From NCBI GenBank assembly GCA_028695735.1, contig JAQVIJ010000002.1, positions 333,852 through 397,851 of the forward strand: a DNA stretch of 64,000 nt, in the 5' to 3' direction. The notes below the pieces were generated by a model. The model saw only the letters and a program-made list of their open reading frames with translations, had not been told where the DNA came from and ran no database searches. The DNA comes from Deltaproteobacteria bacterium (GTDB lineage: Bacteria; Desulfobacterota; Dissulfuribacteria; Dissulfuribacterales; DYLC01). Shown piece after piece: positions 14,489-45,841 of the stretch. Position numbers and translations under genes: made by a program. How positions within the stretch are numbered: position 1 is the first letter of the stretch; each line of letters begins with the position of its first letter.

Positions 14489-17400
14489 CTAATTTTCCTG
14501 CCTGCGTTTGCCCTGAAACCACAAACGTAGGCGATCCAGATAGAGATAGACCACAGGCGTGGTGTAGAGGGTCAGCATCTGGCTGACGATCAGCCCTCCA
14601 ACTATGGCAATGCCCAGAGGCCGCCGGAGTTCCGAGCCGGCCCCTCCGGCCAGGGCCAGGGGAAGGGCACCGAAGAGGGCGGCCATGGTGGTCATCATGA
14701 TGGGCCGGAAACGCAGGATAGCGGCCTGATAAATGGCCTCCTGGGGAGGTTTCCCCTGATTTCGTTCGGTATATAGCGCGAAATCCACCATCATGATTCC
14801 GTTTTTCTTGACGATTCCTATGAGCAAAATGATGCCGATGATGGCTATCAGGTTCAATTCCAGGCCGCAGCACATCAGGGCGATCATGGCCCCTACACCA
14901 GCGGATGGCAGGGTGGATAGAATGGTTACGGGATGGATGTAACTTTCATAGAGTATGCCCAGGACGATATAAACCGCCGCCAGCGCGGCCAGGATCAGAA
15001 ACGGCTGTGTCCTGAGGGAGTTCTGAAAGGCCTGGGCGGTCCCCGCGAATCTTCCGCGAATCTCGAACGGCGTTCCCTGTTTGCGCATGGCGTCATCTAT
15101 GGCCTTGACCGCCTCACTTAACGGGACCCCTTGCGCCAGATTGAAAGAGATGGTTACCGCGGGAAACTGGCCTTGATGGTTCACCGCCAGGGGCCCCGCG
15201 TCGATTTTCCAGGATGCCAGGGCGGAGAGCGGGACAAGCCTGTTGAAAGAGGATGGCACATAGATGCTCTGAAGGGTGTCGGGCTGTTGCCAGAAGGCAG
15301 GCGCCACCTCCATGACCACATGATACTGGTTGAGGGGTTTATAGAGAATGGAGACCTGGCGCTGGCCGAAGGCGTCATAAAGGGCCTCGTCGATCTGTTG
15401 AGGGGTTATCCCCAGACGTGATGCCGTAGTCCGATCTATGTTCAGTGCCGCTTCAAGCCCCCTGTCCTGCTGGTCGCTGTTTACATCTGTCAAAACAGGC
15501 AGAGCGCGCATGGTCTGAAGTATTTTTTGGCTCCAGTTATTCAATTCCGTGACATTTTCAGCCTGCAATGTGTACTGATACAGGGCGCCGCTGATTCGGC
15601 CTCCTATGCGCAGGTCCTGCACAGGCTGCAGAAAGGTGGGTGCTCCTGGTATGTGAGCCAGTTTTTTGCGCAGTCTTGCTATGATATCTCTGGCTGTTGC
15701 CTTGCGTTTTTCAAAGGGGGCCAGCGTGATGAACATACGGGCGCTGTTTGTTGAAGAACCATGGCCGCCGCCTGTGAACCCCGCTACATAGGTGACATCA
15801 GGGTCCTGTTGAATGATCTCCATTACCTCCAGCAGTTTTGAGTGCATATCCTGAAACGAGATGTCCTGTGCGGCCTGTATGCTGCCTGCAATCCGGCCGG
15901 TGTCCTGTTCAGGGAAAAAGCCCTTGGGAATCCAGATGAAAAGGGAGATGCTTGCAGCTATGCCCGCAAGGGTCAGCCCAAGCATGGAGGAAGCATGTTT
16001 CAATGCCCACTGTAATGACCTGTCGTAACAGGACTGCATTTGCAGGAAAATCCATTCGCTTATGCCATATATCCGGCCGTGTCTTTCAGATGTATCCTCT
16101 TTCAATATGGCGGCGCACATCATTGGAGTAGTGGTCAGGGATATGATCAGGGACACGAGGACAGCCGCTGAGAGCGTCACCGCAAATTCCCTGAACAGAC
16201 GTCCCACCATGCCTTCCATCAGAAGGATCGGAATGAAGACCGCCACCAGCGATATGCTCATGGAAAAGACCGTAAAGGCTATCTCTCTGCTGCCGGATAT
16301 GGCCGCCTGAAGCCTTGTATATCCCATTTCCCTGTAGCGGGTTATGTTCTCCAGCACCACAATGGCGTCATCCACCACAAAGCCTGTGGCAATGGTCAAG
16401 GCCATGAGGGAGAGATTGTCCAGGGAATATTCGAATAGATACATGACCGCAAAGGTGCCTACAATGGATGACACAACGGCCACGGCCGGAATGAGTGTGG
16501 CCCGTATATTCCTGAGAAACCAGAAGACCACCAGGATTACAAGGATACCCGACAGGAGCAGGGAGATCTCCACATCATGCAGGGATGCGCGAATGGGAGG
16601 CGTTCTGTCCAGCACAACCGAGAGTTTTATGCCATCGGGTAGTGCAGCCTCCAGCTGAGGCAGAATGGAGCGGATATTGTCCACGGTTTCTATGATATTT
16701 GCGCCTGGCTGCCTGAATATAATCACCATGATGGCCGGTTTACTGTTTACAAATCCGCTCACTCGCAGGTCTTCCACCGAGTCCTTGACTTGAGCCACAT
16801 CGGTGAGTCTCACCGCCCTGCCCGCATGGTAGCTGATGATCAGGTCCTCGTATTCAGCGGCCCTCTGCATCTGATCGTTTGCGTGCAGTTCCCAGAGCGA
16901 GTCTGCGTCCGATACAATGCCCTTGGGCCGATTGACATTGGACGACGCCAGCACACTGCGCACCTGTGCGAGGCTGATGCCGTATTGATTGAGGGACAGG
17001 GGATTCAGCTCCACTCTCACCGCAGGCATGGCCCCGCCGCCCACAAAGACCTGTCCTACGCCGTTTATCTGTGCGAGCCGCTGCTGCAGAATGGTGGAGG
17101 CTGCATCGTACATTTTGGGCTTGTCAACACTGTCGGATGTGAGGGATAGAATGAGAATGGGCGCATCGGACGGGTTGATCTTGCGGTATGTGGGGTTGCT
17201 GGGCAGGTTGGATGGCAGATAGCTGCGAGCGGCGTTGATGGCCGCCTGAACATCTCTGGCAGCGCCGTTTATGTCCCTGCTCAGCTCGAATTGCAGTGTG
17301 ATGCTCACCGCCCCCCTATAACTGACGGAGGTCATCTCTGTGACGCCTGCTATCCTTCCGAACTGGCGTTCAAGAGGCGCCGCCACGGAGGTGGCCATAG

Positions 17401-17572
17401 TTTCCGGGTCAGCGCCCGGAAGTGAGGCTGAGACAGAGATGGTTGGAAAATCCACCTGTGGAAGTGGTGATACCGGCAGAAATTTGAAAGCCAGAATACC
17501 GGCCAGCACAAGGCCGATGGTCAAAAGAGTGGTAGCCACAGGCCGTGTTATGAAAAGCTCAGGGATGTTCAT
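14489..17572 (-). CDS. mdtC: RND efflux permease, MdtC-like
   Basis: A 1027-residue inner-membrane RND drug/proton antiporter (HAE-1 type). It begins [17 protein letters not shown] with the first transmembrane helix, followed by the porter region ([20 protein letters not shown]), the TM4 proton-relay pair in [14 protein letters not shown], the large second periplasmic loop and a C-terminal helix bundle with [21 protein letters not shown]. It is the second permease of a pair and overlaps the first by 4 bases, as in MdtABC systems where MdtB and MdtC assemble as a mixed trimer. It converges with the AAA ATPase gene. Gene letters are assigned by order and similarity; substrates cannot be inferred. 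Confidence 0.9.
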
Positions 17573-20500
17573 GAACCGCTTGTGTTTGTTCTGAATCTCT
17601 TGGCCATTCTGTCAAAGAACAGGTAGATGACCGGAGTGGTGTAAAGGGTCAGAAGCTGGCTGACCACCAGGCCGCCTATGATGGCTATGCCAAGGGGTCT
17701 GCGCAGTTCGGAGCCCACGCCTGTTCCCATGGCCAGGGGCAGGGCGCCCAGCAGCGCCGCCATGGTGGTCATGAGAATGGGCCTAAAACGCAGCAGACAT
17801 GCCTGATAGATGGCCTCCTCAGCGGATTTCCCCTCATTGCGCTCTGCCTCAAGTGCGAAATCCACCATCATGATTCCATTCTTCTTGACGATTCCTATGA
17901 GCAAAATGATGCCGATAATGGCTATGACAGTGAGGTTCTGGTGAAAGAACATGAGAAAAAGCACGGCCCCTACCCCTGCTGACGGCAGGGTGGATAGAAT
18001 GGTTACGGGGTGAATATAGCTTTCATACAGCACGCCAAGCACGATATAAACCGTAATAAGTGCGGCCAGGATCAGAAGCGGCTCGTTTTTGAGGGATGCG
18101 TTGAATGCCTGTGCAGCGCCTTGAAAATCCGTTTTGATGCTGGCCGGCATACCCATGCCCTGAATCACATCCTCTATAGCCTTCACTGCCTGACCAAGGG
18201 AGATGCCCGGTGCGCAATCGAAGGAGATGGTGACCGCCGGAAACTGACCCTGACGATGAATGACCAGCGGTCCTCTTGTTTCAGTGATGGATGCCACCGC
18301 GGCAAGGGGCACTCGATTTCCGGTGGCGGAACGGACATAGAGCAGTTGCAGGTCTTCCGGATGCTGTGTGAAGCGTGGTTTTAGTGTCAGAATCACGCGA
18401 TATTGATTCAGTTCAGTGAAGATGGTGGAGACCTGGCGCTGGCCGAAGGCATCATAAAGGGCGTTGTCTATGTCTATGGGCGTAATGCCGAAGCGGGCTG
18501 CGGTCTGCCGGTCTATATTCAGCAGAATGCGCAGACCCTGATTCTGCTGGTCACTGCTGACATGCTCCAGCTCTTTTCGCTGTTGCAGCCCCTCCAGCAG
18601 GCGTTGCGCCCATAAATCCAGCTCCTCTGCATTGGGACTATCGAGGGTCATCTGATATTGGGTGCGGCCTACGCGCGCATCCACAGTGAGGTCCTGCACA
18701 GGCTGCAAAAAGAGCCGGATTTCGTGTGTGCCGGCCAGTTGTTCGTTCAATCGGCGAATGACCCCTGTGACAGTTGCATCCCTTTCGGCCAGTGGTTTCA
18801 GATTGATGAGCAGCCTGCCGCTGTTGAGGGTTGGGTTGGTGCCGTCAATGCCTATAAAAGACGAGACGCTTTCCACCGCCGGGTCTCTGAGAATCGTCTG
18901 TACCAGGGTCTGTTGAAGTTCGGCCATGGCAGGAAACGAGATGGTTTGGGATGCCTCTGATATGCCCTGAACGGCCCCTGTGTCCTGTACAGGAAAGAAT
19001 CCCTTGGGAATGGCAATGTAAAGTATGACCGTAAGCCCGAGGGTCAGTACGGAGATGGCCAGAAGGTATGGCTGATGTCTGAGGACCCATTTCAGCGAGC
19101 GGCCGTATGCTCGAATCATCGCATCGAGAAAACGGCCTGATGCGGTATAAAACCAGCTTCTGCGTTCCACTGGAGTGTTTTTCAGCATACGGGCGCACAT
19201 CATGGGAGTGAGCGTAAGGGACACAAAGGCGGAAATGACTATGGTGATGCCCAGGGTGACTGCGAATTCTCGAAAGAGCCTGCCCACTACATCTCCCATG
19301 AAGAGCAGTGGAATCAGAACCGCTATTAGCGAGACGGTCAGGGAAAGGATGGTGAACCCGATCTCTTTGGCCCCTTTTATGGCGGCATTCATGGGTGATT
19401 CCCCTGCCTCCACATGCCTTGCTATGTTTTCCACCATCACGATGGCATCATCCACTACAAATCCTGTGGAGATGGTCAGGGCCATGAGGGAGAGGTTGTT
19501 TAAGCTGTAATCCAGCAGATACATGATTCCAAAGCTGCCCACAAGGGACAGTGGCACAGCCGCGCCCGGAATGGCTGTGGCGGACAGATTGCGTAAAAAC
19601 AGAAACATGACCAGAATCACCAGGGCTACGGCCAGCATCAGTTCAAACTGCACATCCTTTACTGATTCCCGAATGGTGATGGTGCGGTCAGTAAGAATGG
19701 AGACTTTCACAGAGGCGGGAAGGGCTGCCTGGAGTTGCGGCAGCAGTTTTTGAATGCGGTCAACCACCTCTATTACATTGGCCCCAGGCTGGCGCTGTAT
19801 GTTCAGAATGACGGCCGGAGTGGTGTTCATCCACGCTGCCTGATATACATTTTCCGCATCGTCTATGGCCTCGGCAACATCCTTCAGCAGAATCGGGGCG
19901 CCGTTTTTGTAGGCGATCACCAGTTTCATGTATTCCAGACTGGACAAGAGCTGATCGTTGGCGGAGATCACATAGGACTGTCTGGGGCCGTCGAAGCCCC
20001 CTTTGGCCTGATTGACATTGGCTGCAATCAGACCGGCCCTCAAGTCCTCCAATGTAAGGCCGTAGGCTGCGAGCGCCGTGGGGTTGGCCTGTATGCGGAC
20101 AGCGGGTCTCTGGCCTCCGCTGATGCTCACCAGCCCTACGCCGGATATCTGCGAGAGTTTTTGGGCCAGCCGGATGTCGGCAAGGTCCTCCAGTTCAGGC
20201 AGTCGCATGGAATCTGATGTGAGGGCCAGGGTCAGAATGGGGGCGTCCGCCGGATTGACCTTGTTATAAACAGGTGGATTGGGCAGGTCCCTGGGAAGGA
20301 AGCCAGAGGCTGCATTGATGGCCGCCTGCACCTGCTGTTCCGCTATGTCGAGGGGCAGTTCAAGAATGAATTGCAGGGTGATTACCGAGCTGCTGTGAGA
20401 ACTGGAGGAGGTCATCTGGGCCAGGCCTGGCATCTGTCCGAACTGGCGTTCAAGGGGGGATGTGACGGAAGAGGCCATTACATCGGCGCTGGCGCCCGGA

Positions 20501-44232: not shown

Positions 44233-45051
44233 ATGATAATCAACATAAAAGAAGCAATTATTTTGGGTATAGTAGAGGGGCTAACTGAATTTCTTCCCGT
44301 ATCCTCAACTGGTCATCTCATTCTGACATCACATCTCTTGGGCTTAAATGCCGATGACGGCAAGACAGGATTGGACGCCTTTGAGATTGTGATTCAGTCA
44401 GGGGCGCTTTTGGCCGTATTTTCCATCTATCTACATTATATTCAGCGCATATGGAATGGTGTTTTAGGCAGGGATTCAGAGGGATTAAAACTCCTTCAGC
44501 AGCTTTTGATTGCCGTAATGCCTGCACTGATTATGGGCTATTGCCTTGGCCATTGGATAAAAGAGAGGCTTTTTGGCATAAATCCAGTGCTCTTTGCCCT
44601 GGTTGCAGGCGGTATTTTAATGATAGTCGTAGAATACATCAGGAAAAACAGAAAGGCATGGGTGCCTTTGACTCTGGAGGATATGGACATCAAAAACGCC
44701 TTGATCATAGGGTGCGCTCAATGTCTTGCCCTCTGGCCTGGCACAAGCCGTTCCATGATTACCATGGTGGCAGCCATGTTGTTGGGTTTTTCTCCAAAGG
44801 CTGCAGCGGAATTCAGTTTTTTGTTGGCCCTTCCCACTCTGGGGGCCGCCACCCTCTACGACCTCTACAAACATGGCGGTGATATTCTGCAGGTAAGCGG
44901 CGTAAGTGGCCTCTTGACAGGTGTGCTGGTGTCATGGATTGTGGCATGGGTGGCTGTCAAGGCATTTTTACTATACCTGACAAGGCACGGAATGTTTATC
45001 TTTGGAGTCTATCGTATCATTCTTGCCATTGCAATCAGTTTGGCAATTTGA
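44233..45051 (+). CDS. uppP: Undecaprenyl-diphosphatase
   Basis: Membrane enzyme of 272 residues that recycles undecaprenyl pyrophosphate for cell-wall synthesis; overproduction gives bacitracin resistance. Both family motifs are present: EGLTEFLPVSSTGHL near residue 15 (catalytic Glu region) and LWPGTSRSMIT near 172. About seven to eight hydrophobic helices span the length. The last eight codons and the stop lie inside the first 39-bp repeat of the array described separately, so the repeat overlaps a normal-looking gene end; product length matches the family, meaning the gene is intact. Confidence 0.95.
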   Translation: MIINIKEAIILGIVEGLTEFLPVSSTGHLILTSHLLGLNADDGKTGLDAFEIVIQSGALLAVFSIYLHYIQRIWNGVLGRDSEGLKLLQQLLIAVMPALIMGYCLGHWIKERLFGINPVLFALVAGGILMIVVEYIRKNRKAWVPLTLEDMDIKNALIIGCAQCLALWPGTSRSMITMVAAMLLGFSPKAAAEFSFLLALPTLGAATLYDLYKHGGDILQVSGVSGLLTGVLVSWIVAWVAVKAFLLYLTRHGMFIFGVYRIILAIAISLAI

Positions 45052-45211
45052 TATAAAAAGGGCCTGAGGGATAAGCAGCGTAATAATCCGCGCGGCAAGT
45101 ATTGCAATCAGTTTGGCAATTTGATATAAAAAGGGCCTGCCAATCTTTTTAGCTGGTTGCATGACATCAGCAATTGCAATCAGTTTGGCAATTTGATATA
45201 AAAAGGGCCTG
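45028..45211. CRISPR. CRISPR-like mini-array (3 repeats, 2 spacers) overlapping the uppP 3' end
   Basis: A 39-bp sequence occurs three times without a single mismatch: 45028-45066, 45101-45139 and 45173-45211. It begins ATTGCAATCAGTTTGGCAAT and ends AAAAAGGGCCTG. The intervening 34 bp (45067-45100) and 33 bp (45140-45172) are unrelated to each other by eye. The repeat contains a short inverted pair ATTGC/GCAAT. This geometry is that of a small CRISPR array. The first repeat, however, is the coding end of uppP including its TGA, and no cas genes lie in the window. Ordinary tandem duplication would also copy the spacers, so it does not explain the pattern. Confidence 0.6.
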
Positions 45212-45277
45212 TGAAATTCGGTGTCCTGCCGTTTTTTCGAGAAAGAAAATCCATTTTAACCCCAGGAGAAGAAGGTA

Positions 45278-45841
45278 ATGTACGATTCATCAGACCTTAG
45301 AAAGGGTCTCAAAATAGTCATAGACGGAACTCCATACATCGTCACAGATTTTCAGTTTTCCAAACCAGGGAAGGGCCAGGCCCTTTATAGATGCAAACTC
45401 AAAAACATGATGACCGGTTACACTATAGACAGGACATACCGGTCTGGTGAGAAATTCGAACCCGCTAATCTGGACGAGGTCCAGATGCAATTTCTTTATA
45501 AAGATGGCGACGGATTTCATTTCATGGATACCCAGAAGTATGAACAGGTCGCTCTGACCGAGGAACAGGTGGGGGAGGCCAAGAATTTTTTGAAGGAAAA
45601 CATGGAGGTCACGGTGTTGTTTTTTGACTCCACTCCCATCGACATCACGCTTCCCATCTTTGTTGAGCTTCAGGTCACCAAGTCTGATCCTGGTGTGCGT
45701 GGAGATACTGCCACCGGCGCTACAAAGCCTGCCACGCTGGAGACAGGTTATGTGATTCAGGTGCCACTTTTTATCGAGGAAGGTGATGTCTTGAAGATAG
45801 ACACTCGAACCGGCGAGTATGTGGAACGTGTAAAAAGATAA
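45278..45841 (+). CDS. efp: Elongation factor P
   Basis: A 187-residue factor that rescues ribosomes stalled at polyproline. Domain I carries the modification loop SKPGKGQALYR with Lys32 as the expected beta-lysylation site; domains II and III follow, ending with GYVIQVPLFIEEGDVLKIDTRTGEY in pieces. GGAGAAGAAGG precedes the ATG. It lies 66 bases after the last array repeat, so efp expression may have been affected by array insertion between uppP and efp. epmA follows seven bases after the stop. Confidence 0.96.
   Translation: MYDSSDLRKGLKIVIDGTPYIVTDFQFSKPGKGQALYRCKLKNMMTGYTIDRTYRSGEKFEPANLDEVQMQFLYKDGDGFHFMDTQKYEQVALTEEQVGEAKNFLKENMEVTVLFFDSTPIDITLPIFVELQVTKSDPGVRGDTATGATKPATLETGYVIQVPLFIEEGDVLKIDTRTGEYVERVKR

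Follow-up and report, generated by a model that had tools for sequence, protein, structure and literature searches.

At the locus analyzed here, two intact genes follow each other on the forward strand of the window, which is the whole 64,000-nucleotide stretch of DNA under study. These are uppP (44233-45051), which encodes an undecaprenyl-diphosphatase of the BacA family (Pfam BacA, E=4e-75), and its downstream neighbor efp (45278-45841), which encodes elongation factor P with its Pfam EFP domains. The end of uppP and part of the intergenic region are occupied by a block of 184 bp (45028-45211, + strand), in which the 39-bp sequence ATTGCAATCAGTTTGGCAATTTGATATAAAAAGGGCCTG is present three times with 39/39 identical positions. 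The native copy R1 (45028-45066) starts with ATTGCAATCAGTT and spans the last eight codons and the stop codon of uppP. It is followed by the unique insert S1 (45067-45100; 34 bp, GC 0.53), the exact copy R2 (45101-45139), the unique insert S2 (45140-45172; 33 bp, GC 0.42), and the exact copy R3 (45173-45211), which abuts the native downstream flank. With repeat starts at 45028, 45101, and 45173, the two units measure 73 and 72 bp. A re-reading of the coordinates thus confirmed to the base the first-pass annotation, which had described three perfect repeats and, between them, two unrelated inserts with lengths of 34 and 33 bp, and likewise its assignment of the first repeat to the coding end of an intact uppP.

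At any given offset, a single exact match of 39 bp would arise by chance with a probability of about 4e-24. As one further base would be common to all three copies by chance in about 6% of cases, the duplicated length is 39 bp or at most one or two bases less. Similarity was found neither between S1 and S2 nor between the inserts and the bases before R1 or after R3 (all |z| < 1.3), and the block is therefore not a decayed tandem repeat of 72-73 bp; chance origin and tandem-repeat decay are both excluded. The arrangement has the structure that defines CRISPR arrays, i.e., near-identical repeats of about 23-50 bp that are separated by unique spacers of similar size.

One of the three copies is pre-existing host sequence. 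The uppP gene is kept in 39 of 41 genomes across the order, and its nearest orthologue, with 59% identity, belongs to another genus of the same family and reads gcaATTGCCATCATC where the uppP analyzed here reads gccATTGCAATCAGT. The orthologue L016 carries the homologous ATTGCCATCATC at the position of the R1 start. R1 thus begins with native coding sequence, whereas R2 and R3 are copies. Joined around a single repeat, the flanks read uppP...CTTGCC-repeat-TGAAATTCGG...efp, and in the empty-site form with its single repeat, CCTG would have been joined to TGAAATTC. A contig search for uppP returned distant relatives only; no strain of the species or genus was found among the genomes searched, and an empty site was accordingly not seen. 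As uppP remains intact, the insertions may have been tolerated for this reason.

In a scan of 568 kb of DNA, exact repeats with a minimum length of 20 bp, an offset of 45-95, and non-matching interiors were present in this block and in the two genuine CRISPR arrays of the genome; otherwise, there were two viral contigs, each with a pair of the minimal length of 20 bp. The first-pass annotation had named a dispersed 72-73-bp unit, many genomic copies of the inserts, and a conserved RNA element as observations that would speak against an origin by spacer integration, and none of them was made: the unit is not dispersed in the genome, the whole block and each insert are single-copy, the block was not found in any of 40 relatives, and an Rfam search of the region gave no family at E<=1.

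The absence of cas1 and cas2 would also have counted against this origin, but the genome (2.22 Mb in 9 contigs) contains two cas1 genes that belong to two complete systems with cas2 genes and long arrays. The type I-C operon comprises Cas3, Cas5c, Cas8c, Cas7c, Cas4, Cas1, and Cas2 and is followed by an array in which 82 repeats have 32 bp and a further 5 are a variant with 33 bp. The type III-B operon encodes a CARF-ADA protein, Cmr1, Cas10, Cmr3, Cmr4, Cmr5, Cmr6, and Csx20, followed by PrimPol, Cas1, and two Cas2 proteins; it adjoins an array with 105 repeats of 37 bp, ATTCGAATCACTTGACCCGATTAGAGGGGATTAAGAC (C5:202562-). Genes of the IHF/HU family are present as well. The two Cas2 genes that follow Cas1 in the III-B locus (G000:C5:190001-210000) differ from each other, and the pair lies beside PrimPol. 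Some III-B repeats near the far end of the array have one mismatch. In the I-C array, neighboring identical spacers such as TTGGCAGATTGAAAACTCAGGATATTCCATTCCT, which occurs twice in a row (L011:12583-12682 and others), reflect duplications of repeat-spacer units. The mean GC content of the spacers differs strongly between the arrays, with 0.37 in III-B and 0.55 in I-C, as if the two systems sampled different invaders or AT-rich regions.

The start of the ectopic repeat, ATTGCAATCAGTT, agrees with the start of the III-B repeat at its leader end, ATTCGAATCACTT, in 10 of 13 positions, and both repeats open with a perfect 8-bp palindrome. Within the window, this score was reached at 14 of 127,974 positions on both strands, three of which are the copies of the block itself and 11 others. 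Genome-wide, the pattern ATTNNAATCANTT occurs at 116 places, namely the 105 III-B repeats, the three copies of the block, and about 8 sites elsewhere. As this likeness emerged after several comparisons that covered two repeats, both ends, both strands, and several lengths, we estimate a corrected significance of perhaps about 0.005. Among the III-B units, no lengths are commoner than 73 and 72 bp, whereas neither is found in any of the 81 I-C units. Beyond the first 13 bp, the ectopic repeat is unlike both genuine repeats, and the bases upstream of the site, which are uppP coding sequence, resemble neither the III-B leader nor the I-C leader. An IHF-like site, which the III-B leader has, is absent within 240 bp upstream of the block. 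In this comparison with the repeats and leader ends of the genuine arrays, which the first-pass annotation had proposed, similarity is thus confined to the first 13 bases and the III-B repeat.

Taken together, the block is very probably an ectopic ("neo-") CRISPR array that arose from two successive off-target integrations by the Cas1-Cas2 of the cell itself. At the 3' end of uppP, Cas1-Cas2 would have attacked the two strands at a distance of 39 bp and joined to them a piece of DNA of 33-34 bp, and the filling of the gaps would have produced the 39-bp duplication, after which the identical site would have been used a second time. By this polarity, the coding end of uppP would correspond to the leader side, and of the two inserts, S1 would have been acquired later. 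The view of the first-pass annotation that off-target spacer integration was the cause is thus supported, as the block survived each of the refuting tests that were made and the site is similar to the III-B repeat at its leader end, which is expected of off-target Cas1-Cas2 integration. Its term "nascent" implies ongoing growth, whereas two past events are all that is visible.

Other origins have to be weighed against this one. If slippage or recombination had duplicated a unit of about 72 bp in tandem and the inserts had diverged later, the regular spacing of 72-73 bp would be accounted for. However, drift would have had to spare 39 bp three times, leaving the repeats 100% identical, while fully erasing 33 bp, and as no trace of similarity is left between the two inserts or between them and the flanks, we agree with the first-pass annotation that slippage or tandem duplication is unsuited as an explanation and give it hardly any credence. 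Error-prone break repair with templated insertion is known to be able to leave duplications that carry short inserts or filler DNA, but here it would have had to hit an identical pair of boundaries twice with single-base precision, with inserts of 34 and 33 bp for which there is no local or genomic template, and we consider it very unlikely. The location between uppP and efp would suit a regulatory element or a conserved RNA, repeated by chance; as the Rfam search and the relatives speak against it, the fold of the repeat is not significant (z=0.23), and the first copy is coding, the probability of such an element is close to nil. An artefact of the assembly is highly improbable, too. The genome is a draft in 9 contigs, and an N run, i.e., a scaffold gap, within the III-B array (L084:132-269; G000:C5 near 209732-209869) indicates that repeats troubled the assembler, but the 184-bp block contains no N and lies within a contig of 451 kb, and its inserts have no further copy in the genome and hence are not misjoined genome pieces.

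That some Cas1-Cas2 acted at uppP is a much firmer claim than which one it was. We consider the III-B module (PrimPol-Cas1-Cas2-Cas2) about twice as likely an agent as the I-C module, because the 13 leader-side bases mimic the III-B repeat and the unit length fits. What speaks against III-B is that the repeat has 39 instead of 37 bp, that the upstream sequence is unlike the III-B leader and lacks its IHF-like site, and that the inserts fit I-C better in length and GC content. Both 34 and 33 bp lie inside the spacer-length distributions of the two arrays, but they are the two commonest lengths in I-C (36/81 and 25/81), and together they account for 75% of the spacers in I-C versus 25% in III-B; likewise, the GC contents of 0.53 and 0.42 are closer to the I-C mean than to the III-B mean. 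The I-C module (Cas4-Cas1-Cas2) could have made both insertions by an otherwise unchanged mechanism, and we regard this as possible, albeit doubtful. In its favor, the reverse complement of the 3' end of the I-C repeat, GTTTCAATCC, agrees with the start of the site in 7 of 10 positions; however, such matches are frequent (549 of 127,980 window positions), and this one lies at the end of the I-C repeat that faces away from the leader. Moreover, the I-C repeat is GC-rich, has 32 bp, and begins with G, whereas the site is AT-rich, has 39 bp, and begins with A. The resemblance of S1 to an I-C spacer, described below, points in the same direction but is inside the range of real-spacer controls.

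The origin of the inserts was addressed by several searches. Neither S1 nor S2 has a second copy in the genome within 3 mismatches, and the search against phages and plasmids that the first-pass annotation had proposed yielded no full-length match in INPHARED or PLSDB. Both inserts were also absent from 394 other genomes of the phylum (up to 3 mismatches), and IMG/VR gave no full-length match when half-spacers were used as seeds; the best extension, for S2, was 25/33 in this search, and the seed end accounted for the whole of it. Degenerate codon patterns derived from S1 and S2 did not reveal a convincing protospacer. Since unmatched spacers are common in sparsely sampled bacteria, the missing protospacers say little for or against the proposed origin.

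A side aspect of these searches is that S1 and the reverse complement of I-C spacer 46 (L011:15156-15189) share the 11-nt core GATAAGCAGCG. Past this core, the mismatches are at third codon positions only, over the residues D-K-Q-R-N-N. The score of 13 for this pair was higher than that of all 150 shuffles but was equalled by 2 of 31 real-spacer controls, and we therefore dropped the likeness as proof of origin. The two spacers possibly derive from homologous genes of related phages, but their likeness is within the range of these controls.

To our knowledge, natural CRISPR arrays that started outside existing arrays are rarely documented. In 2018, Nivala, Shipman and Church (Nat Microbiol 3:310) reportedly observed that off-target integration by Cas1-Cas2 at chromosomal sites resembling the native array generates neo-CRISPR loci, and they are said to have found candidate natural cases in genomes. 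The block shares with those loci the chromosomal site that resembles a native array. It differs in the system, which is here III-B with PrimPol or I-C, in the two consecutive insertions at one site, and in the target, which is the coding end of uppP in a gene that stays intact. The phenomenon is known (Nivala 2018, Kim 2019), as the first-pass annotation had pointed out, and the block is new as a natural example and not as a kind. It is a clean case from nature, notable for two events in succession at a single site, and its candidate integrases can be named.

With the type II-A Cas1-Cas2 of Streptococcus thermophilus, off-target sites in vitro mimic the leader-repeat junction, and a ruler sets the distance to the second attack (PMC6895254). 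Those in vitro products were probably half-site products on plasmids, whereas the product seen here is a full one and lies in a natural chromosome (PMC6895254). In a study of CRISPR-associated primase-polymerases (CAPPs), the PrimPol-associated III-B Cas1-Cas2 of Marinitoga piezophila inserted prespacers in vitro where leader and repeat meet (PMC8211822). The III-B locus analyzed here shares the PrimPol-Cas1-Cas2 arrangement of CAPP type III systems, but the integration described there occurred beside the leader of genuine arrays, and the target here is ectopic (PMC8211822). In comparison with the III-B array of the same genome, the block has a similar 13-bp repeat start, the opening palindrome, the 72-73-bp unit, and unique inserts in common, whereas the rest of the repeat is unrelated and has 39 versus 37 bp in total, a leader is lacking, the copies number 3 versus 105, and the cas genes are far away. 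A clear ancestral target in the form of a conserved coding end, two insertions, and candidate integrases are thus found together in one genome, and the locus offers a concrete test of target choice by PrimPol-type III-B Cas1-Cas2 and of whether a chance resemblance to a repeat end can seed new arrays.

With respect to a possible function, the fold of the ectopic repeat did not include a significant hairpin (z=0.23). R3 is followed by a weak terminator-like hairpin with a T run (45219-45239, + strand), which is a consensus match only; three such matches were found in the region versus 1.4 expected. Transcripts that read through from uppP could thus carry the array in their 3' UTR, in the strand orientation of the III-B repeat. 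It is conceivable but rather unlikely that the uppP tail works as a second array, with a site that draws repeated insertions and a transcript, the uppP 3' UTR, that yields guide RNAs for the III-B effector; if so, a CRISPR array would have been born from protein-coding sequence. Elsewhere in the window, two neighboring paralogous stretches about 3.08 kb apart (14544-20500), which are 71-79% identical in pieces, represent a tandem gene duplication.
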